Below, in pieces: positions 3,750 to 19,511 of a DNA stretch of 41,279 nt. The stretch is from positions 1-41,279 of the IMG/VR virus record IMGVR_UViG_3300025769_000269; one strand, 5' to 3'. This DNA is from a virus. The translations under genes were made by a program, and so were the position numbers. A model generated the notes under the pieces. That model searched no databases, had not been told where the DNA came from, and was given only the letters and a program-made list of their open reading frames with translations. The first letter of the stretch is position 1, and every line of letters begins with the position of its first letter.

Positions 3750-4277
3750 TCATACACTAAGGTTGTGGTGGATAAGCACTTTATTCACAGGGGCGAAGTC
3801 AGGAAGGTCAGAAAACTTTTTGTAAAGATAATTGATGCCAGTGTGCATGACTGTTTTCATCTGCTCACTTCCTTCCGAATGGCGATGGGAATAGAGCACG
3901 AGTTCAAGCATATCGGCCATTTTAAGTCTGTTCTTTTCATCTGGCGAAAGCATAAAATTCAATCCAAGGTCGTCCATCACCTTTTTCTCTGCTCTTTCAA
4001 AGGCTTGCATCACTTCAGGGAATGCCCATTTCGCAGTAGCGGGGATATCACCTAAGACAATTTCAGGTACATCATGGTACAAAGCCGCCATAATCAATTG
4101 TTTAGAACTATCTGGCCATAATTGGTCAATCAAAATGCTTACTGCGTATGAATGTGCTCCCACTGTTTGCCTCTCTGCTTGCATTGGAACAGTATGGTAG
4201 CGCAGTAAGAACTGTGCATCCCATGCTGTCATCAATGTTTTAATGTTGGTTGTTGTCTTGCATCGGCGTCCCGCCAT
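3750..4277 (-). CDS. HD-domain phosphohydrolase (YfbR/DatZ-like nucleotidase)
   Basis: A 175-residue HD-superfamily enzyme, expected to bind a divalent metal and hydrolyse a (deoxy)nucleotide phosphate in the cytoplasm. Visible motifs are RYHTV at 26-30, GAHS with H42, the H68-D69 pair in AALYHDVPEIVLGDIPA with E72 and D77, and D122 in KMADMLE. Length and motif order fit the YfbR 5'-deoxynucleotidase and DatZ group. The start at 4277 is preceded by GAGGAGTAAAGG and overlaps the polymerase gene by 38 bases, so the two are coupled. Likely role: shaping the dNTP pool for the phage polymerase. Substrate cannot be read from the sequence. Confidence 0.85.
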   Translation of the reverse strand: MAGRRCKTTTNIKTLMTAWDAQFLLRYHTVPMQAERQTVGAHSYAVSILIDQLWPDSSKQLIMAALYHDVPEIVLGDIPATAKWAFPEVMQAFERAEKKVMDDLGLNFMLSPDEKNRLKMADMLELVLYSHRHSEGSEQMKTVMHTGINYLYKKFSDLPDFAPVNKVLIHHNLSV

Positions 4278-6159
4278 CCTTTACTCCTCTTGCCCAAGGC
4301 TTATCGCTAAATGTTTTCTTGGCTTCACCCCAACTCGGACCGAACTCAGCATCTACAACGCTGGGGATTTGCATATTCACACAGGTTTCCATAATACCCT
4401 GTATCTTTTTACCTGTTTCTGGGTCACCTACTGATATATCCAATTCATCATGTACTTGTATCAGGGGTGTAATACCTTCTTCGTACAAGGCTACCATCGC
4501 CGCTTTAGTTTGGTCAGCGGCACTGCCCTGTATCAATCTATTTAAGGCTTTGTAAGTAAACGCTCTTTTGATAGCAGGACCATGCTCGGCATACGCATCT
4601 TGGTAAGATTGTGGCTTGAATGTGCCATAGGCATTTGGCTCCCACTTATCAAAACGACACTTGCGTCCAAGTAGGGTGCGTATCACACCTTTGTTAGAAG
4701 CACGGTTGATTACATAATCAGCCAACTGTTGCACAAAGGGGACTTTACCGTGGTACTCAGCAAACAACTCTTTTGCATCTTCAAACTCCAGCCCCAACTG
4801 CTCAGCCAGTTTGTTCTTACCCATACCGTAAAACAATCCAAGGTTGATGTCTTTGGCTTGCTTGCGTGGCACTCCCACAATATCAGCCGCCATTTGGTGA
4901 AAATCTGTATTAGCATCAATATTGTATTGGTCAGCAAAGTCTTGTGCGCCTTGCAGTTTGAGTAGGCTGGCGTAATGAACAACGAGCCGTGGTTCTTGGC
5001 TACTATAATCAAATGCCCCCCACACTTCACCCTCTTCAGGTAAGAACAGGCCACGAATCATTGGACCAATCTCAGCGTTCCGTGCTGGCACTTGCTGTAG
5101 ATTAGGGTTGCTGTAACTGAAGCGGCCTGTAACTGTGCCACCATCATCACTCCTCAGGCTGTGTGCTTCAGCATGGATGCGACCATTGTGCTGGTGCTTC
5201 AGTATAGTGTCTATAAAGGTAGTTCGGGCTTTATTCAGCTCTCGAGCTCGAACCACAGCCTTTGGCAAGTCATGGGCATGGTTAGCCAGAAAGTTTTTAG
5301 TGAAGCTCGGTGCGCCACTCTTGGGCGTTTTAGGGTATCGCAACCCCTGAGCATCGAAAGATTTAGCAATACTCGCCGCCGCCCAAATATCAATGTCTTG
5401 CCCACCGACAGAAGCAAGCACTTTTTGTTCTTCTGATTGCAGATAATCTTTTAACTGCTCGGCTTTTTCAAGGTCTACACGCACACCCTTCTTACGCATG
5501 GCGAAGACGACTTTTAGCACTTTAAGTTCTAGGTCAAATATATCGGCAATATCTTCTTTAAGTATCAGCCCTTTGAAATGTTGCCACAGTTTCAAAGTCA
5601 AGGCGGCATCCTGCTCAGCATACGCACCGACAAAATGTGCTGGTAGTTTCCACATTTCACTCTTAGCATTTACGCCAAAAGACTCAGCGGCTTCCCTTAA
5701 ATCCTTTTCGCTTTTACGCTCATTAAGGTAATCCCTACCCAAAGCATTGAGGGCATAACTGAATCTATTTTCATCGAGCAAGGCGGCAACGAGCATAGTA
5801 TCTACAATGCGACCTTTAACCTCAATCCCTTCTGCCCACAGCCAACCGAGGTCATACATAGCATTGTGCATAATATAATCACGCTCAACTGAGCATACAT
5901 CAGTAAGCCAGCGGAGGGTTTGTTTAGCATCAAAGTTGCCACCGTTTTCATGCCTGATCGGGAAGTACCATGCTTCACCTTCAACAGCCACAGCCACACC
6001 GATTACATACCCATCCTTGCGAGGCCACCCACTGCCCATCGTTGTAAGATTTGGGTCGCGTGTTTCAAGGTCGATTGCAACCTCTCTGGCATCAGACAGA
6101 TCAGGGTAGCCATCAGGCATAACCCACTCAGTCGGTGGTGTGAACAGGGGGAATTGCAT
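4240..6159 (-). CDS. polA: Family A DNA polymerase with 3'-5' exonuclease
   Basis: A 639-residue replicative polymerase. The proofreading domain shows Exo I D30/E32 (VAIDLETRDP), Exo II N99/D103 (HNAMYDLGWL) and Exo III Y180/D184 (YAEQD). The polymerase domain shows motif A at D384 (FDYSSQEPRLVVHYA), motif B at 432-447 (RKQAKDINLGLFYGMG) and motif C H570-D571-E572 (IQVHDELDI). There is no N-terminal 5' nuclease domain, as usual for phage Pol A. Aligned with E. coli Pol I motif B, L440 stands where Phe762 would be, a variant known in marine viruses. Lies between a zinc-ribbon gene and the HD hydrolase, overlapping both. Confidence 0.97.
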   Translation of the reverse strand: MQFPLFTPPTEWVMPDGYPDLSDAREVAIDLETRDPNLTTMGSGWPRKDGYVIGVAVAVEGEAWYFPIRHENGGNFDAKQTLRWLTDVCSVERDYIMHNAMYDLGWLWAEGIEVKGRIVDTMLVAALLDENRFSYALNALGRDYLNERKSEKDLREAAESFGVNAKSEMWKLPAHFVGAYAEQDAALTLKLWQHFKGLILKEDIADIFDLELKVLKVVFAMRKKGVRVDLEKAEQLKDYLQSEEQKVLASVGGQDIDIWAAASIAKSFDAQGLRYPKTPKSGAPSFTKNFLANHAHDLPKAVVRARELNKARTTFIDTILKHQHNGRIHAEAHSLRSDDGGTVTGRFSYSNPNLQQVPARNAEIGPMIRGLFLPEEGEVWGAFDYSSQEPRLVVHYASLLKLQGAQDFADQYNIDANTDFHQMAADIVGVPRKQAKDINLGLFYGMGKNKLAEQLGLEFEDAKELFAEYHGKVPFVQQLADYVINRASNKGVIRTLLGRKCRFDKWEPNAYGTFKPQSYQDAYAEHGPAIKRAFTYKALNRLIQGSAADQTKAAMVALYEEGITPLIQVHDELDISVGDPETGKKIQGIMETCVNMQIPSVVDAEFGPSWGEAKKTFSDKPWARGVKDGGTPMQDNNQH

Positions 6160-6304
6160 CGTCTGCCTTTACTTTCATAGGTTGATTACAGGAACAATGT
6201 GGCCATTTGTTTTTGAGTTTACGAAAGGTGAGGCGTTTAACCTCACCCTCGCACTCACAAACAGCAACAACAGGTTCATCCAACTTCGAGTTCGAGTTGT
6301 CCAT
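6128..6304 (-). CDS. Small zinc-ribbon-like protein
   Basis: A 58-residue protein started at ATG 6304, with GAGGGG 13 bases upstream; a longer frame would need a TTG start. It has two CxC pairs, AVCECEG near the middle and HCSCNQP about 20 residues later, separated by a basic strand (VKRLTFRKLKNKW). This is the layout of a very small zinc-binding domain. The gene overlaps the polymerase start by 32 bases and the preceding gene by 29, so it is embedded in the replication operon. It could be a polymerase accessory or regulatory protein; function unknown. Confidence 0.6.
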   Translation of the reverse strand: MDNSNSKLDEPVVAVCECEGEVKRLTFRKLKNKWPHCSCNQPMKVKADDAIPPVHTTD

Positions 6305-6725
6305 TATCAGGGCGTTCCCCTCGTTGCATTCTAATTTCAGCTTCAACTAAAAACAAATAACGCCGTAGGTCGCGTATATCATCTATAACACCTTCCTCAC
6401 GGCTGTCTTCGTATGCCGTTTGGAACACATCATAATTCCAGTCAGCCACTTGCTTTTCAAGCCTGTCCCATTTGCGAGCCAGCATCATGAAAGCACCAAC
6501 ACCTCCGCGCTGTTTCCAACTGTTGCCATAGGATTGCTCAGATATATGCAACCCTTCAACATCTTCATTAGCCAGACCTAGCACCTTATTGATAATGGCA
6601 CTGTAGTCATCAGCCTCTATTTCACCATTGGCTACCATTTTTTCATACTCCTCCTCTTCTAATTCACGCATACGCCGCATCATATAAGCCTCGTGACCTT
6701 CATAGCCTAAACCGATTCCATCCAT
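6276..6725 (-). CDS. Conserved phage protein, possibly Nmad1/DUF1599-like
   Basis: A 149-residue helical protein. The first 30 residues are strongly acidic and charged. The core has YGNSWKQRGGVGAFMMLARK followed by WDRLEKQ and a C-terminal DDIRDLRRYLFLVEAEI. The YGxSW...R..RLE...D...DL..Y order resembles the nucleotide-modification-associated domain 1 (DUF1599), which Iyer and colleagues linked to DNA base modification loci. I hold this as a possible distant relation, not a firm call. It overlaps the end of the thymidylate synthase-like gene by 19 bases, so the two are co-translated, consistent with nucleotide metabolism. Confidence 0.55.
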   Translation of the reverse strand: MDGIGLGYEGHEAYMMRRMRELEEEEYEKMVANGEIEADDYSAIINKVLGLANEDVEGLHISEQSYGNSWKQRGGVGAFMMLARKWDRLEKQVADWNYDVFQTAYEDSREEGVIDDIRDLRRYLFLVEAEIRMQRGERPDNGQLELEVG

Positions 6726-7723
6726 TTTTCACGCCTCCGTTCTAACCATTCGTAACACGCCAAATGCCAATCATCTGGCTTTATGTCCTTCGAATGTTCT
6801 ACGGCTTGGAAAAACTCTTTTTCTTTCCATGCCACCCACATTCTGTGCATAGGCTGTGCCACTTCGCTAAAAACGGAGTTAATATAATGTCTTGGTTTCT
6901 CGGCATCTTCCATAAACCACTCAAGCTCTTCTTCAAAGGTGACTATATCGTCAATCAATGGCGAAGGTTTAATCATGCGTGTGGCATATGAATCATAATC
7001 AGGGGTCATGCCATCTAACTGCTCCAGCACTTCGGTATAAGCATGGAGGTTATTGCTAAACTGTGTGTAGATCCCTACCTTTGCGCCAATCCGTGCCGCA
7101 ATATATTCTTGCAGAATGGACATATGGACAGCGTTAGCTCCCAGCGCACCCCAGATCATATCATTACTGCGGTTACATACGGTCATATCCAGTTTGTTAT
7201 CGCGGACACCAAAATAGATATGAGTATTGCAAGGGTGGTCTTTGCACCCATTATCTTTACGCAAATCCCACTCGGGATCCCACATTGTTAAAACAGTTCG
7301 TCTATCATTTTCATAGGTCATAAGTCTATGAATAACGACTTCTAACTGGTCACGGTGGAAATACTTACGCCATCTAAAACCATATGCACCTTGAAGGTGA
7401 GTACCGTTATCGCTATAAGTACCCATCCGTTTATTATACCGCTGGATCCACTCAAGGTCATTACGCCCTGCCAACATCCAGAGGCTTTCCATAAAGTGGA
7501 AGATGGGGTTTGCATCCCGCTGGGGATAAAACAACACACGCTCACAAGGGTTATTATATGTGATAGCGCATGGTTCACGGAACTCTAATGCTTTACCATT
7601 TCTGGTTTCTACTTCTACACCAGAAGTTTCCAAGGCTTGCTTGACAAGCCATAGTGCATCACTCACATTAACTGCTGTGAAAGTGTGCATACCCCTCATT
7701 GGGGCTTTACCGTATAGTGCCAT
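6707..7723 (-). CDS. Thymidylate synthase-fold enzyme, divergent (possible pyrimidine hydroxymethylase)
   Basis: A 338-residue member of the ThyA superfamily, which transfers a one-carbon unit from methylene-tetrahydrofolate to C5 of dUMP or dCMP. Visible: FMESLWMLAGRNDLEWI (residues 77-93), LQGAYGFRWRKY (110-121), the catalytic Cys165 in DHPCNTHIYF, and the nucleotide-binding RSND at 185-188 followed by N197 in GALGANAVHMS. In true ThyA the Cys lies in a PPCH context, so this enzyme is diverged, and the usual ThyA C-terminus is missing. Asn at 197 favours a uridine-type base (dCMP hydroxymethylases of T4 type have Asp). It may make TMP or hydroxymethyl-dUMP. Start supported by AGAAAGG. Confidence 0.85.
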   Translation of the reverse strand: MALYGKAPMRGMHTFTAVNVSDALWLVKQALETSGVEVETRNGKALEFREPCAITYNNPCERVLFYPQRDANPIFHFMESLWMLAGRNDLEWIQRYNKRMGTYSDNGTHLQGAYGFRWRKYFHRDQLEVVIHRLMTYENDRRTVLTMWDPEWDLRKDNGCKDHPCNTHIYFGVRDNKLDMTVCNRSNDMIWGALGANAVHMSILQEYIAARIGAKVGIYTQFSNNLHAYTEVLEQLDGMTPDYDSYATRMIKPSPLIDDIVTFEEELEWFMEDAEKPRHYINSVFSEVAQPMHRMWVAWKEKEFFQAVEHSKDIKPDDWHLACYEWLERRREKWMESV

Positions 7724-7751
7724 ATTGAACCACCTTTCTATGGGGTTATAA

Positions 7752-7767
7752 AGCCGCTCGAGCGGCT
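7752..7767 (-). terminator. Perfect 16-base palindrome between radical SAM and ThyA-like genes
   Basis: AGCCGCTCGAGCGGCT is a perfect palindrome that folds into a 6-bp GC-rich stem with a TCGA loop. On the minus strand it is followed by TTTATAACC, a weak U run. It lies between the stop of the radical SAM gene and the ThyA-like start, so it could attenuate or terminate upstream transcription, or be an operator for the next gene, whose AGAAAGG leader is about 15 bases further on. Confidence 0.5.
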
Positions 7768-7824
7768 GAAGTTAGTTTGCCCTACCCAACTACCAAAAGC
7801 AACCTTCTAGTGGCTGTATGGGGC

Positions 7825-8826
7825 TTAAATAAAGTCATAATGTTTCTTTACACGCGGGGTATAAGTACCTCCACTCAAAGCATTTTCTATTGCCGTTTCT
7901 GTTTCCTGCGTAGGCTCGGGTAACTCCTCGCGTCCCATACGGTCAGGCAAAAGTCCATTACGCAAAGTGGTATTGTCACAGCCGTTGCAAGGACCAAAAT
8001 CCCGCTGACCGTGGTACAGCTTCGTTCTCGCCGCATGGAAAGCATCCCCCTGCCATATTTCTTCTAACGGTGTTTCTAAAACATTGCCGCACTTATACCA
8101 TCCTACCCAATCATTACAGCAAATAGCGACATTACCATCCCAGCGTATAGACATCTCACGGAAAGGTTTTGCACAGCGTTTGCCATCTTGCTCATGGTTC
8201 AAAGGGAAAGCATTTCCAGCATGGTTGCTAACTTGGGCATGAGTTCCACTTGTAGCCAATGTGAGATCCATGCCAACGACAATATCATGATCTGTAACTT
8301 TTCTTCTACGGTGGGGGTTTGCGGCACGATCGGCGGGATATTCATAAACGGGATGTGGACCATTGTAACGCTCCTTGATTTTATCTACGATTTTGATGCG
8401 GTCGTAGTTATCCAAAAACAAAACATTCAGCCCTGCGTCCATCAGCCTATTGACGCTTTCCTCTGTATCTTTCAAAAGGCCACCGCCATTGCTGGTCATC
8501 ATCATGGGGGCTTTTGGTAGGATCATGCGGAACTGCCGTATAATTTCAGCACAGATGGGGTGCATTGTTGGCTCACCGTGCATAGCAAACTCAAGCCGAG
8601 GATTCCACCCTGAATCTTTTATTGCTTCGGCTATTGCCTTTGCATCATTTAGACTTAGGTTTTTGTATGGAGCCGATGCTTTACCATGTATATCTTCTGG
8701 ACCATCAGCACCATTTTCCCGTATTGATTGAATACCGCAAAACGAGCAAGCAAGGTTACATCCTTCCACTAATTCTATCTGAATAGCGTTTGGTGGATCT
8801 TGGTAATAGTTAGATACAATCGCCAT
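7825..8826 (-). CDS. Radical SAM enzyme with SPASM-like C-terminal cysteines
   Basis: A 333-residue iron-sulfur enzyme. The CNLACSFC motif (C23, C27, C30) binds the 4Fe-4S cluster that cleaves S-adenosylmethionine; HGEPTMHP (83-90) is the GGEP-type SAM motif. C-terminal cysteines at about 218, 236, 237, 246, 280 and 283 (for example VAICCNDW and GPCNGC) fit a SPASM or twitch domain with auxiliary clusters. I start at ATG 8826 because GGAGAAAGG lies 8 bases ahead; this leaves a 17-base overlap with the glycosyltransferase gene. Co-expression suggests that both act on the same product, perhaps a modified base. Substrate unknown; radical SAM enzymes of this type otherwise act on peptides. Confidence 0.9.
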   Translation of the reverse strand: MAIVSNYYQDPPNAIQIELVEGCNLACSFCGIQSIRENGADGPEDIHGKASAPYKNLSLNDAKAIAEAIKDSGWNPRLEFAMHGEPTMHPICAEIIRQFRMILPKAPMMMTSNGGGLLKDTEESVNRLMDAGLNVLFLDNYDRIKIVDKIKERYNGPHPVYEYPADRAANPHRRRKVTDHDIVVGMDLTLATSGTHAQVSNHAGNAFPLNHEQDGKRCAKPFREMSIRWDGNVAICCNDWVGWYKCGNVLETPLEEIWQGDAFHAARTKLYHGQRDFGPCNGCDNTTLRNGLLPDRMGREELPEPTQETETAIENALSGGTYTPRVKKHYDFI

Positions 8827-9595
8827 CTTTTGCGGCCTTTCTCCATTGTACGCGGACATCCCAGCGGGTTTTCATACCGTCCCAGCCTGTTTTAGTTTCT
8901 TTCTGTACTGCCTTTACATGGTCAGGGAAAGCGGCGGCAAGAGCAAGGCTGGCTTGTTCTTGTAGTTCAGCATTACGGTAAGAACTGCACCCTCCTGCCG
9001 CACCAGAAGCACCACGCTGATCCCAAGTCCAATCTACAATAACATAATTAGGATATCCCTTACTGAACAGGCTGAGGGTTACATAGTAATCTTCCATCAG
9101 TTGCATTGTATCATACCGTATATTTTCTTTATGCAGAACTTTTGGCTGGATACCATGGACAGCGTTTTGCCGCATACCCTCTTTGAATAAATGGGGGAAA
9201 TGTTTATCATTCATTTGCCGTGGGCTAAGTCCCACATGAACATAACTATTAAGCATTCTATCCATACGCTCCCACAACTCGTGCATTTCTTCTTGAGTTG
9301 TTTTTCTTAAATTGGGAGCATCTGGCATTGCACGACGACCAAATACAAGATCGTCATCCAGAATAAGCACTTTATCATGGCCTCTCTCCACTGCATGATC
9401 TACTATAAATTGTCTTACATTATTGATGCCCTTAATATCGCCACGGTTTAAGCAGTAGCGACCATTGTTAATGTGGGCTTGGACTTCTTCTTGGGGGCAA
9501 ACCAGAACAGCGTGTTCTCGTGCTTCCGGACCAATACTTTGCCATGTGGTCTGTTTATTGATCCTGCCCCTTGTTGGAATATAAATTGGTATCAT
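8810..9595 (-). CDS. GT-A glycosyltransferase resembling TET-associated glycosyltransferases (TAGT)
   Basis: A 261-residue nucleotide-sugar transferase. It begins IPIYIPTRGR, typical of this group, and carries the metal-binding acidic triad D80-D82 in LILDDDLVFGRR, an ED pair at 168-169 (LMEDYYVTLSLFSKGYPN), and GGCSSYR at 201-207 followed by KETKTGWDG and DVRVQW. This combination matches my memory of the TAGT family, which Iyer and colleagues (2013) found in phage and eukaryotic base-modification loci and proposed to glycosylate hydroxymethylated bases in DNA. The ATG overlaps the zinc-ribbon stop as ATGA, with GAGGAAG ahead. Surface or protein glycosylation is the alternative. Confidence 0.8.
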   Translation of the reverse strand: MIPIYIPTRGRINKQTTWQSIGPEAREHAVLVCPQEEVQAHINNGRYCLNRGDIKGINNVRQFIVDHAVERGHDKVLILDDDLVFGRRAMPDAPNLRKTTQEEMHELWERMDRMLNSYVHVGLSPRQMNDKHFPHLFKEGMRQNAVHGIQPKVLHKENIRYDTMQLMEDYYVTLSLFSKGYPNYVIVDWTWDQRGASGAAGGCSSYRNAELQEQASLALAAAFPDHVKAVQKETKTGWDGMKTRWDVRVQWRKAAKDGDCI

Positions 9596-9912
9596 AACTC
9601 TTCCTCATCAAACCTTATTGAACCAGAGGCCATTGCTTCTTCTAACTCTTCATCGGTTAGGTTGTCAATGTCTGCTTCTGTGTATCTGAATTGTTTTTTA
9701 GCCGCCCATGTAGTCTTCATCCTCGGCTTCCGTTTTGGATTTGGTGCTTCGGGCTTCGGTTTCGGCGTGGTGGGCTTGGAGGTCTCTAATACTTCCAATG
9801 TCCGATAGACGTGTTTGCATTTCTGACACACTCTCTTCCTCCGAATTGATTTGTCCGGAGTAATTCTGCTGTCTACGACGCTGGATTTGCCACTGCATTT
9901 TGGACACAACAT
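9592..9912 (-). CDS. NrdR-like zinc-ribbon protein without ATP-cone
   Basis: A 106-residue protein started at ATG 9912, right after the upstream stop, giving an N-terminus of MLCPKCSG. Cysteines at 3, 6, 31 and 34 (CPKC and CQKC) around VVDSRITPDKSIRRKRV form a zinc ribbon that closely resembles the N-terminal half of NrdR, the repressor of ribonucleotide reductase genes. The nucleotide-binding ATP-cone of NrdR is absent; instead there is a Pro/Lys-rich linker and an acidic helical tail. It may bind DNA or zinc in the modification operon, but the role is unknown. Coupled to both neighbours. Confidence 0.75.
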   Translation of the reverse strand: MLCPKCSGKSSVVDSRITPDKSIRRKRVCQKCKHVYRTLEVLETSKPTTPKPKPEAPNPKRKPRMKTTWAAKKQFRYTEADIDNLTDEELEEAMASGSIRFDEEEL

Positions 9913-9914
9913 TT

Positions 9915-10811
9915 CTATACCACCCCGCCATTTGGAGCCTCCAACCACATACCAATATTAGCGCGATACTTACTACGAGGCTTGCCTTGGCCTAACCGTA
10001 CACGCTCATACTTATCCCACTCACACAGGCTATGCTCAATCGTACGCATATCTACTGCTTCAATGGGAACATGAGATTGAATGTAATCTGGTGCTTGAAT
10101 CAGTAACTCTTGCATTTCTTTATTGGCTTGGGTCTGCGGCATGGACTTTGTCAGGGTTCTGTCGTGGATTCTGTTGAGTCCTCGCTTTGCTCCTGGACCA
10201 GCGTTTGCCCAACTAAAACGGTCTGATGCCTTGTCCAATACAGGCGTGTAGTTGAGGTCGGTAACCACTTCATATGACATAAAACCTCCCCCTCCCCATC
10301 CCCTATAGGAAGCCATCGCTTCATGTACGGCTTGGAGCGAGTTCGTGTTGGTGGCGGTTTCCGCCAGTTTGTGTTGCGCTTCCCAGATCGGCGTGAGAAA
10401 ATGGTCAACCACTACCTCCGACTTTTTAGCCTTGAGTCCTTGGTTAGTGATTATATAAGCTCCAGTGAATGTTCGTAAACCAACAGATAATCGGGTATCG
10501 ATAAGTTCCTTAGTGCGGGTAGGATCCCACTCTGTTACCCACCCATGTTCATCCGCAAACTCGCTTGTGCCGACCATGCGGAATAAACAGCAGTTAAAAA
10601 TGATCTCACCATGTGGGCGGTTATCATTGGGCTTTGTCCAATTATTTCGCATCCACACAGTAACACGGTCATTTTCACGGAAGGGATTAGTAAACTTATA
10701 ATCCTGTAGGATATGGTCATCAGTCCAAGGGGGAGTGACCCCCTTGGCTCGCTTTTGGTAAATGGCATGACGCTCATTTATCCAGTAAAAGAACCTTTCT
10801 ATGTTCTCCAT
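9915..10811 (-). CDS. 5-hmdU DNA kinase helical-domain-like protein (base hypermodification)
   Basis: A 298-residue protein resembling the HMUDK helical domain family (earlier called aGPT-Pplase), implicated in phage thymidine hypermodification, where it acts on 5-hydroxymethyl-dU in DNA. Features recognised: FFYWINERHAIY at 7-18, PWTDDHILQDYKFTNPFREN with DRVTVWMRNNW (28-58), FTGAYIIT (115-122), a glycine-rich turn GWGGGGFMSYEVVTDL (171-186), WANAGPGAKRGLNR (201-214) and the C-terminal IEHSLCEWDKYERVRLGQGK. The family call is by memory of this order. GGAGGTTAGTTCT supports the start. Placed just upstream of the zinc-ribbon, glycosyltransferase and radical SAM genes, it suggests a common DNA modification pathway. 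Confidence 0.8.
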   Translation of the reverse strand: MENIERFFYWINERHAIYQKRAKGVTPPWTDDHILQDYKFTNPFRENDRVTVWMRNNWTKPNDNRPHGEIIFNCCLFRMVGTSEFADEHGWVTEWDPTRTKELIDTRLSVGLRTFTGAYIITNQGLKAKKSEVVVDHFLTPIWEAQHKLAETATNTNSLQAVHEAMASYRGWGGGGFMSYEVVTDLNYTPVLDKASDRFSWANAGPGAKRGLNRIHDRTLTKSMPQTQANKEMQELLIQAPDYIQSHVPIEAVDMRTIEHSLCEWDKYERVRLGQGKPRSKYRANIGMWLEAPNGGVV

Positions 10812-11583: not shown

Positions 11584-12615
11584 CTAGGCGGCTTTAGCGT
11601 ATTCCAAAGCCTTTGTAAGAGCCTTGCGCTTCACTTGGGCATTGTTTCCAAACCAAGTAGAAGTAAGGGCATGGTCGCGGGTTTTGGCTCGCTTTTGGTG
11701 ATCCATAACATATGTAACACCATTGAGCGCACCCCACCAAGTCCCCTTGGCTGATGCTTTGTCATGTCCTGGAGAAGTTTCAATAGCCTCCAGTATAGAC
11801 TGGGAAGTTTTGCTAAACTCCTCATGAAGCGGTGGAAGGTTGGCCTCATTAGACTTACCACGCTCCACTAACAACTTCGGCTGGAATAACTCAGCAATGA
11901 AGTTATCAACCTGATCCTTGGTAGCCTTTTGCTTGGCAAGGAACTCGGACTGCTGTTGGAACTGTGTCATTTGCTCACCGCTAATACCAAGTGCTGTTTC
12001 AGCCGCTTGCATAATTTCCTCGTCAAACATTTGCAGATGCAATACACGGAACTTACCAGTAAGCCCTTCTTGGTTGAGAGCCATAGTAATCGTATTGTTG
12101 CACACTACGCGGATAGGCGTGAACATAATGGTCATTGCCGAACCAACTTTGTGACTGTTAGCCATAAGCAAGTAACCTTCAACTTCATCACCGCCAGCGA
12201 GGGTAAAGCCCTTCTTGATTTTGGCCAAGCCCCAAATGCGCTCACCATCACTAAGGCTACCCGCCGTATCCATTTCCATATGCCCTGCTTCAGTAAACTT
12301 TTTAAAGAAGGACATTGTTTCGTGGTTCTGGAATGGAACAAACCCTTCACCGCAGTGCGATAGCACACGGTTATCTGTATCACGCACCACTACATAATGG
12401 TCGTGAGCACGAAGCATCTCGGCTTCCCCGCGTGGGTCATTGAGGTTCCAAGTATTGGGCTTATCAGCGTAGTAAACAGGACGCTTACTAACTGTCCAAT
12501 CAAGCCCTGCGGCTTTAAGCATTTCCTCGGGTGTGAGGTTATGCTCAACTTTTTGACCAAGCCCATGCCAAGGTACTTGACCTGCATAAGCCATCGTTTC
12601 TACCATATGCGCCAT
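11584..12615 (-). CDS. DUF932 phage/plasmid-like protein
   Basis: A 343-residue protein of the DUF932 family (TIGR03299, phage/plasmid-like). Characteristic are the N-terminal VPWHGLGQKV and later SHCGEGFVPFQNHETMSFFK, then GYLLMANSHKVGSAM and a TPIRVVCNNTITMAL segment, followed by a helical C-terminal half ending with the W-G-A-L-N-G-V-T-Y region near 285-300. The family is common on mobile elements and large phages; its biochemical function is not established. AGAAAGGAGACTATT precedes the ATG. It forms its own short unit, with a leader upstream and two hairpins after the stop. Confidence 0.9.
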   Translation of the reverse strand: MAHMVETMAYAGQVPWHGLGQKVEHNLTPEEMLKAAGLDWTVSKRPVYYADKPNTWNLNDPRGEAEMLRAHDHYVVVRDTDNRVLSHCGEGFVPFQNHETMSFFKKFTEAGHMEMDTAGSLSDGERIWGLAKIKKGFTLAGGDEVEGYLLMANSHKVGSAMTIMFTPIRVVCNNTITMALNQEGLTGKFRVLHLQMFDEEIMQAAETALGISGEQMTQFQQQSEFLAKQKATKDQVDNFIAELFQPKLLVERGKSNEANLPPLHEEFSKTSQSILEAIETSPGHDKASAKGTWWGALNGVTYVMDHQKRAKTRDHALTSTWFGNNAQVKRKALTKALEYAKAA

Positions 12616-12636
12616 AATAGTCTCCTTTCTACAAAA

Positions 12637-12903
12637 CTAGGCGTTATGACCAGCTTCCACAGTTGGAAGCACATCAAAGTCAGCCAGCGAAATATCTAGC
12701 CAACAAGTTTCCCCCATTGCACTATACGCAATCTGACAACGCATCTCAACATCGTTGTGCAACATTGTGTCGATAATGGGGTATTTGAAAGAGTCGTCAA
12801 GCGCATCAATAAACTTACGCTTGAGTGTGCGGTTAGCCTTGCGGCGAACAGCACGGTCATTGAGCTGTATAAAATGCTCTTTGGTTAGGTATGGTACATC
12901 CAT
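12637..12903 (-). CDS. Hypothetical small protein
   Basis: An 88-residue protein. I use ATG 12903 because AGAAGGGGCTAAATTT leads into it, whereas the longer frame has no ribosome site and would cover the inverted repeat. The N-terminal half is basic and helical (NDRAVRRKANRTLKRKFIDA), the C-terminal half looks like a short beta segment (MRCQIAYSAMGETCWLDISL). No family recognised. Downstream lies the DUF932 gene, 21 bases away with its own leader. Confidence 0.65.
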   Translation of the reverse strand: MDVPYLTKEHFIQLNDRAVRRKANRTLKRKFIDALDDSFKYPIIDTMLHNDVEMRCQIAYSAMGETCWLDISLADFDVLPTVEAGHNA

Positions 12904-17951: not shown

Positions 17952-18074
17952 GGTTTTATCCAAAAACAAATACTTACTTTGACTGGTCGCGCGGATTAAA
18001 AACAGATACAAAAACATATGCAGTTTTTTGCGTTCGGTGCTATTATACAAAAGTACCCATTAGAAAGCGGTGTT

Positions 18075-19511
18075 ATGCGTTACAAATTTAAATTCCAGCC
18101 CTATGAGCACCAGCTCGAGGCTTTGAAAAAATCTTGGAACAAGCCAGAATTTGCCTACTTCATGGATATGGGGACAGGTAAATCAAAAGTGCTTATTGAT
18201 AATATGTGTGTGCTGTATGACCGAGGTGAGATTACGGCGGCATTGATAATCGCCCCCAAAGGTGTGTACCGAAACTGGGAAAAAGGTGAACTGCCCACGC
18301 ACATTCCAGACCATGTTATGTATGACACGGTGCTGTGGAATCCTAGCCAAACCAAAACACAACTTGAAAAACAAAAGACCCTGTTTTTCCCCGACGATAA
18401 CCTCAAGATCTTTGTTATGAATGTTGAAGCCTTCAGTACAAAGAAGGGTTGCGATATTGCCGAGCGTTTTATCAATGCTCACAAATGTCTTATGGCTGTA
18501 GATGAAAGCACTACCATAAAAAGCAAGGATGCTAAACGCACTAAGAACATTGTGAAGATAGGCAAAAACGCTACCTTCAAACGCATACTAACGGGGTCAC
18601 CAGTAACCAAAAGCCCTATGGATTTGTATACACAATGTGAGTTCCTTGATCCATGGTTACTTGGCCACAGTAGTTACTTTAGCTTCCAATACGAGTATGC
18701 CGTGGTGCAACGCCGCACAATGGGAGCGCATAGTTTTAACCAAGTAGTAGGATACCGTAACCTTGATAAACTCAACGGTGTTCTAGAAAACTTTAGTTTC
18801 CGTGTAAAGAAAGAAGACTGCTTAGACTTGCCCGATAAAGTGTATATCAAACGCAGTGTGGAACTTACCACTGAACAAAAATCGGTATATTCAAGCCTTA
18901 AAACATTTGCCCTTGCCATGCTTGAGGAAGGTTCTGTAACCACAGATACAATCCTTACGCAACTGCTCAGGCTACAGCAAGTTTGCTCAGGCCATGTGCG
19001 AATGGACGATGGTGAAATGAAAATATTTGATTCAGCTAAGTTACCTGAACTAATGTCCGTTCTAGAAGAAGTAGATGGTAAGGTTATCATTTGGGCTAAC
19101 TTTACACATGACATTAAGAATATTGAGCAAGCCATTGCAAAGGTTTACGGCGAACAATCAGTAGCCACTTATTACGGTGAAACCGAGAGTGATGAGCGAC
19201 AGGAAATTGTTAACCGTTTCCAAGACCCTAACGACCCATTGACTTATTTTGTAGGGCAACCACGGACAGGTGGTTATGGCCTAACATTGACAGAAGCTAA
19301 AACTGTGGTGTATTACAGCAATAACTTTGACCTTGAAATACGGTTACAAAGCGAAGATAGAGCGCACCGTATCGGGCAAACTAGCAAAGTAACATATATT
19401 GATATTGTAGCGGAAGACACAGTCGACGAGCGTATCTTGAAAGCCTTGCGGAATAAAATCAATATAGCAAGCCAAGTCCTCGCAGAAGACTTTAGAGATT
19501 GGATTGTTTAA
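18075..19511 (+). CDS. SNF2/DEAD-like superfamily 2 helicase (DEXDc)
   Basis: A 478-residue ATPase, the only plus-strand gene. I start at ATG 18075 because TAGAAAGCGG lies just ahead, as for other early genes; an upstream ATG would add 19 residues without a ribosome site. Motifs: FQPYEHQLEAL (Q-like), Walker A DMGTGKSKVL (31-40), Ia APKGVYRNW (60-68), Walker B AVDESTTIKS (141-150), III LTGSPVTKSPMDLY, V GYGLTLTEAKTVVYYS and VI RAHRIGQTSKVTYIDIVAED. This is the SNF2-type architecture common in HMO-2011-like marine phages. It probably remodels replication or recombination intermediates. Its stop codon overlaps the convergent neighbour's stop. Confidence 0.92.
   Translation: MRYKFKFQPYEHQLEALKKSWNKPEFAYFMDMGTGKSKVLIDNMCVLYDRGEITAALIIAPKGVYRNWEKGELPTHIPDHVMYDTVLWNPSQTKTQLEKQKTLFFPDDNLKIFVMNVEAFSTKKGCDIAERFINAHKCLMAVDESTTIKSKDAKRTKNIVKIGKNATFKRILTGSPVTKSPMDLYTQCEFLDPWLLGHSSYFSFQYEYAVVQRRTMGAHSFNQVVGYRNLDKLNGVLENFSFRVKKEDCLDLPDKVYIKRSVELTTEQKSVYSSLKTFALAMLEEGSVTTDTILTQLLRLQQVCSGHVRMDDGEMKIFDSAKLPELMSVLEEVDGKVIIWANFTHDIKNIEQAIAKVYGEQSVATYYGETESDERQEIVNRFQDPNDPLTYFVGQPRTGGYGLTLTEAKTVVYYSNNFDLEIRLQSEDRAHRIGQTSKVTYIDIVAEDTVDERILKALRNKINIASQVLAEDFRDWIV

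Follow-up and report, generated by a model that had tools for sequence, protein, structure and literature searches.

How could a phage modify its thymine if it encodes HMUDK_hel, the helical partner of the 5-hydroxymethyldeoxyuridine (5-hmdU) kinase, but not the P-loop kinase itself? This question is raised by the virus record IMGVR_UViG_3300025769_000269, a linear sequence of 41,279 bp that was analysed as a whole (the window) and that we judge to be a fragment because relatives with the same cassette reach 50-69 kb. A block of tightly packed genes, all on the (-) strand (3750-10811), probably encodes a kinase-free, glycosylation-type thymidine hypermodification pathway with radical tailoring of the sugar. 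A modification pathway of this kind disguises phage DNA from bacterial defences. If the proposal is true, phage thymine hypermodification has a second branch, based on sugars, and this branch occurs in a widespread group of viruses that is related to pelagiphages and probably marine. The DNA coat would be changed by swapping a single gene, probably in response to bacterial restriction, HMUDK_hel would gain a proposed role outside the kinase setting and the radical SAM protein would become a candidate enzyme on a DNA-bound sugar.

In the predicted order of steps, the ThyA-fold enzyme would convert dUMP to 5-hydroxymethyl-dUMP, the HD protein would trim competing nucleotides (its substrate could be dTMP or dTTP) and the polymerase would incorporate 5-hmdU into the DNA, the base thus being U rather than C. 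Once the DNA is replicated, the hydroxymethyl group would receive a sugar from a glycosyltransferase, to which HMUDK_hel would bring 5-hmdU; in the window this enzyme is TAGT, in sister phages a GT4-like, GT-B or third-type one. The radical SAM enzyme would then oxidise (dehydrogenate) a carbon of the attached sugar. The genes are, in transcription order:

9915..10811, (-) strand: HMUDK_hel protein (formerly aGPT-Pplase1), 298 amino acids, without P-loop; PF18723, 7.1e-52, 176.9 bits (cut-off 25)
9592..9948, (-) strand: NrdR-type zinc ribbon protein, 118 amino acids, without ATP-cone; PF22811, 2.8e-11, 43.6 bits
8810..9595, (-) strand: TAGT glycosyltransferase with invariant DDD motif; PF20691, 9.5e-16, 58.8 bits (cut-off 27.5)
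7825..8859, (-) strand: radical SAM enzyme with BtrN-like twitch/SPASM domain; PF04055 and PF13186 (SPASM), both above cut-off
6707..7723, (-) strand: predicted ThyA-fold deoxypyrimidine hydroxymethylase, probably acting on dUMP; PF00303, 76.1 bits
6276..6725, (-) strand: conserved cassette protein of 149 amino acids, kept in nearly all relatives and in phage Pam3
6128..6346, (-) strand: small Cys-rich protein, 72 amino acids, between the 149-residue gene and the polymerase; kept in relatives
4240..6159, (-) strand: family A DNA polymerase with 3'-5' exonuclease domain; PF00476 (DNA_pol_A), 1.1e-58, and PF01612
3750..4277, (-) strand: predicted YfbR-like HD-domain deoxynucleotide phosphohydrolase; PF12917, 3.3e-9; PHROG 7076 (dATP triphosphohydrolase), 1.2e-17

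These profile matches bear out most of an earlier annotation made from the sequence alone (the original prediction), which had named an HMUDK_hel-like protein, an NrdR-like zinc ribbon, a TAGT-like glycosyltransferase, a radical SAM enzyme, a divergent ThyA-fold enzyme, the replicative polymerase and an HD nucleotidase.

A glycosyltransferase slot and the missing kinase

The argument for a sugar-based pathway starts from the slot between HMUDK_hel and ThyA. Among the related contigs in IMG/VR, 74 distinct ones span both genes, and every one of these loci (74/74) carries exactly one of four glycosyltransferase-type families: GT4-like (30), TAGT together with the radical SAM gene (27), GT-B (13) or a third family (4). 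The aspartates D80-D82, the acidic metal motif of TAGT, are invariant in 11 relatives, and the GT4-like family is recognised by Pfam (Glycos_transf_1, 9e-9 in contig L079). The GT-B family has no Pfam match; all 41 PDB matches of its AlphaFold model (pLDDT 64) at E<=0.001 are glycosyltransferases, among them the T4 alpha-glucosyltransferase on DNA that contains an HMU base. The empty slot in L067 and L068 is explained by relocation of the GT4 gene, which lies about 6 kb upstream.

The slot content has changed repeatedly. On the HMUDK_hel tree, some forks of which are weakly supported, the slot label changes about 11 times, and, on the starred branches alone, each of the three main slot types needs at least 2-3 changes. 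The cleanest swap is seen between L052 (GT4) and L059 (GT-B): the 10.9 kb that end with HMUDK_hel are 96% identical at the nucleotide level, the slot itself gives no match, and similarity resumes at 92% close to the start of ThyA. HMUDK_hel thus remains almost unchanged while members of different transferase families replace one another in the manner of alleles. FkbM methyltransferases occur among the slot genes of L066, L186 and L206. In L171, the gene between HMUDK_hel and GT-B (6114-6974) fuses a cytidylyltransferase-like domain to a cupin of the mannose-6-phosphate isomerase type, a composition that suggests a phage-encoded supply of sugar nucleotide. Both point to sugar chemistry.

The nearest characterised relative of the cassette is that of Pseudomonas phage M6, whose DNA contains a 5-hmdU derivative, 5-(2-aminoethyl)deoxyuridine (PMC6449724). 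The M6 cassette comprises an amino acid:DNA transferase, a pyridoxal phosphate (PLP) enzyme, a radical SAM protein, the P-loop 5-hmdU kinase, HMUDK_hel, Nmad5, ThyA and an HD protein next to PolA. Pam3 has the same genes, Sonora has a similar set with the kinase preceding HMUDK_hel, and in Guetzie the P-loop kinase that accompanies HMUDK_hel is annotated as an adenylate kinase. The cassette of SN1, near-identical to that of M6, has been described (PMC9476957). With M6, Pam3, Sonora and SN1 the window shares the ThyA-type hydroxymethylase (43% identical), HMUDK_hel and the position next to PolA; the HD protein is shared with M6 and Pam3, and Pam3 also has a relative of the 149-residue protein. 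In contrast to the M6 type, the window lacks the P-loop 5-hmdU kinase, the amino acid:DNA transferase, the PLP enzyme and Nmad5, and has instead a glycosyltransferase and a different radical SAM enzyme.

The original prediction had included phosphorylation of the base, a step that is unsupported and probably wrong: HMUDK_hel is only the helical partner, and the P-loop kinase is absent here and in every relative tested. Neither the kinase (PF18748) nor the amino acid:DNA transferase (PF18724, above cut-off) is found in the window and 22 near-complete relatives of 50-69 kb, while M6, Pam3 and Sonora score positive as controls; PF18748 is also absent from 20 further records. No M6-type kinase, amino acid:DNA transferase, PLP or Nmad5 gene occurs in the 74 contigs spanning HMUDK_hel to ThyA. 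A kinase hidden elsewhere was sought with PF18748, PF18724 and a P-loop motif scan, all negative; in the two full TAGT-type contigs, the sole P-loop protein of at least 150 amino acids is a UvrD helicase. G017 does encode a P-loop protein of 151 amino acids, at a large distance from the cassette; as this genome also has the GT4 gene, the protein was discounted. The polypeptide taken as the M6 kinase, gp54, was assigned from Pfam names and secondary papers. A search for the Tet_JBP dioxygenase (PF12851) of base J-type modification gave no match in the window and 14 relatives, with no positive control scoring either.

The radical SAM enzyme and its substrate

A profile of nine relatives of the radical SAM enzyme has BtrN as its only PDB match (1.9e-10), aligned in both the core and the twitch domain together with its cysteines. 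The CxxxCxxC motif (C34/C38/C41) and the four auxiliary-cluster cysteines (C229/C247/C291/C294) do not vary among 48 sequences with identities as low as 38%. BtrN itself, a radical SAM dehydrogenase of the twitch type, oxidises 2-deoxy-scyllo-inosamine, an aminocyclitol (PMC9012708). The likeness covers the radical SAM core and the four twitch cysteines; the difference is that BtrN serves in butirosin biosynthesis, on a free aminocyclitol, and not in a DNA modification context.

In distant phages, including one with a 177-kb contig, the radical SAM gene is accompanied by HMUDK_hel, ThyA and one or more glycosyltransferases wherever the contig contains the complete cassette, and never by the M6 kinase; in all, it is found with three unrelated transferase families. 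Its kinship with BtrN, its constant glycosyltransferase company and the sugar genes nearby favour oxidation of a sugar, and the enzyme most likely acts on the attached sugar as BtrN acts on its aminocyclitol, by dehydrogenating one carbon. We know of no report of such a radical SAM oxidation of a sugar on DNA. A first scan of the window's clade had suggested TAGT and radical SAM as an obligate pair (27/27 spanned loci), but the pairing, though it holds for most of the clade, is broken in L206 and distant phages pair radical SAM with other glycosyltransferases.

For this step only, and compatible with the rest of the pathway, a different substrate is a serious though not favoured possibility: the enzyme may oxidise or rearrange the 5-hydroxymethyl group itself, or its substrate may be a small-molecule sugar nucleotide that is yet to be transferred. 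The substrate of BtrN is a free small molecule (PMC9012708), and the sugar-nucleotide gene in the L171 slot indicates that donor synthesis can be encoded there. The association with three unrelated transferase families fits a common product as well as a common donor and does not separate these options.

HMUDK_hel and the modified base

The HMUDK_hel protein of the window is 35% identical to M6 gp55, and its AlphaFold model (pLDDT 86) is all helical. Across 67 glycosyltransferase-linked and 4 kinase-linked proteins, 23 residues are invariant and no residue separates the two sets. The same invariant residues in both settings favour one shared task, the recognition or presentation of 5-hmdU in DNA, over half of a kinase. 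Comparison with the PDB by sequence and fold gave nothing significant; several of the best fold matches are helix-hairpin-helix (HhH) DNA glycosylases, which is consistent with a base-handling fold. Most likely, then, HMUDK_hel is a DNA-binding, base-presenting partner of the sugar transferase. A wider proposal, which we offer tentatively, has three parts. HMUDK_hel would act as a general subunit for 5-hydroxymethyluracil recognition and base presentation, its partner being a kinase in the M6 type and otherwise any one of three or more unrelated glycosyltransferases. Phages would vary the sugar on their DNA by exchanging the glycosyltransferase as if it were an allele, and the BtrN-like radical SAM enzyme would oxidise this sugar on DNA.

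Several observations weigh against the sugar-based pathway or parts of it. The conservation of HMUDK_hel despite kinase loss also fits an enzymatic role of its own, and its fold matches to DNA glycosylases are weak, none having E below 0.001. The third slot family has only a marginal match to Glyco_trans_1_2 (E 0.025), clade member L206 has TAGT without radical SAM, and the similarity to BtrN leaves the substrate of the radical SAM enzyme unfixed. The 18-20 kb missing from the window were judged from relatives, most of which are incomplete, and a kinase unlike PF18748 and devoid of the P-loop motif used would escape the searches.

The base is indicated by the ThyA-fold enzyme, which is 43% identical to M6 gp58 and shares with it the active-site motif NRSND..WGA.GANAVH. 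This identity and the common segment make 5-hmdUMP, formed from dUMP, its most likely product. It is improbable that the target is instead cytosine, with ThyA making 5-hydroxymethyl-dCMP and TAGT glucosylating 5-hydroxymethylcytosine (5-hmC) as in T-even phages. The T-even system acts on 5-hmC and is not known to have HMUDK_hel or a radical SAM enzyme. What the two systems would have in common is a hydroxymethylated pyrimidine glycosylated after replication by enzymes of the GT-A type, to which the known TAGT family belongs, or of the GT-B type, and for the TAGTs characterised from T2 and T6 the substrate is glucosylated 5-hmC (PMC13216743). The best PDB match of the ThyA-fold enzyme, moreover, is a CMP 5-hydroxymethylase. 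Yet the ThyA-fold enzyme agrees with that of M6 in the active-site segment, also at the Asn of GANAVH, the M6 virus carries bases derived from 5-hmdU, and HMUDK_hel is tied to 5-hmdU systems. A thymine hypermodification pathway adjoining the polymerase is well supported, and ThyA groups with the M6-type dUMP hydroxymethylases.

Quite unlikely, finally, is an M6-type pathway in which HMUDK_hel forms part of a functional 5-hmdU kinase (its kinase coming from the host or from an unrecognised viral protein) and the phosphorylated base is an intermediate for glycosylation or radical chemistry: the invariant HMUDK_hel residues are those of kinase-linked proteins and the genes near ThyA, HD and PolA are ordered similarly to those of M6 and Pam3, but PF18748 is absent from the 22 and 20 relatives despite positive controls, UvrD is the only P-loop carrier in the full TAGT contigs, no amino acid:DNA transferase or PLP enzyme is present to use the phosphate, and the sugar transferase requires a free hydroxyl.

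Gene order, relatives and neighbouring genes

The arrangement of the cassette is kept in dozens of related contigs, which rules out chance. The first four genes (HMUDK_hel, zinc ribbon, TAGT and radical SAM) overlap by 4 to about 50 bp, which fits one translation-coupled unit. The zinc ribbon protein, which covers the NrdR model only at positions 1-51 of 147 and is found at 18/27 TAGT loci, is regarded as accessory. The 149-residue protein is 50% identical to the product of Pam3 gene 54, and its family, present in nearly all cassettes, has the strongly conserved motif YGxSWxxRGGxGAxMMLARKWDR ... DLRRYL. It has no Pfam family above cut-off; its initial assignment as Nmad1-like is abandoned, as this protein and 15 relatives match no Nmad family in Pfam at E<=1 and PF07659 (DUF1599), which we take to be Nmad1, matches nowhere. 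As for the postulated small zinc protein, the 72-residue product is Cys-rich and conserved in relatives, but profile searches assign it to no family.

The window polymerase is closest to that of the seawater phage 023Pt_psg01 (56% identity), followed by Pelagibacter phages HTVC027P and HTVC023P (51-53%), similarities that make a marine origin plausible. HTVC023P-type pelagiphages, reported in 2022, share with the window the related polymerase, a thymidylate synthase (TS) and aG/PT-PPlase1, and some of their genomes have a 5'-deoxynucleotidase and a TAGT-type glucosyltransferase near PolA (PMC9599517). This exact set, for which the original prediction knew of no description, is therefore partly described. 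In the text of that report available to us, the term 'radical SAM' does not occur, the system is treated as an extension of M6, and neither glycosyltransferase swapping nor the missing kinase is discussed. With this scope, three features appear new: the clade lacks both the kinase and the amino-acid branch, unrelated transferases replace each other one for one, and a BtrN-like enzyme is tied to this exchange. The cluster of Brevibacterium phage LuckyBarnes likewise has ThyA, two TAGTs and HMUDK_hel adjacent to each other without a 5-hmdU kinase; in contrast, no radical SAM gene was found adjoining and its ThyA is only 30% identical.

Upstream of HMUDK_hel, in the window (11584-12615, (-) strand) and in nearly all relatives, lies a gene for a DUF932 protein, which is also found near HMUDK_hel in the unrelated phage LuckyBarnes and may be part of the same functional neighbourhood. 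Three early proteins encoded upstream match Pam3-specific Pfam families. A G+C-rich hairpin, GCCGCTCGAGCGGC, followed by TTTAT, lies between radical SAM and ThyA (7724-7824, (-) strand), just upstream of the ThyA ribosome-binding site. Relatives retain a stem at this place although both of its sides differ in sequence, and the intergenic RNA gives a better fold than shuffled versions (z -3.0); the hairpin may act as a terminator or have a regulatory function.

In the genome collection, only two contigs of metagenome-assembled genomes (GTDB) carry the cassette, L205 and L206, binned as Flavobacteriaceae and Woesebacteria, respectively. Both look like phage contigs, so that the bin names are weak evidence for a host and no firm host can be given. 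The cassette of a distant relative, L195, includes a gene of the uracil-DNA glycosylase superfamily (12178-12774; Pfam UDG, 9e-37). The window also encodes an SNF2-type helicase (18018-19511, (+) strand), whose neighbours lie on the other strand; in NCBIfam it resembles ZorD and DISARM helicases, with scores far below the cut-offs. In L190, an SNF2 gene adjoins the radical SAM gene.

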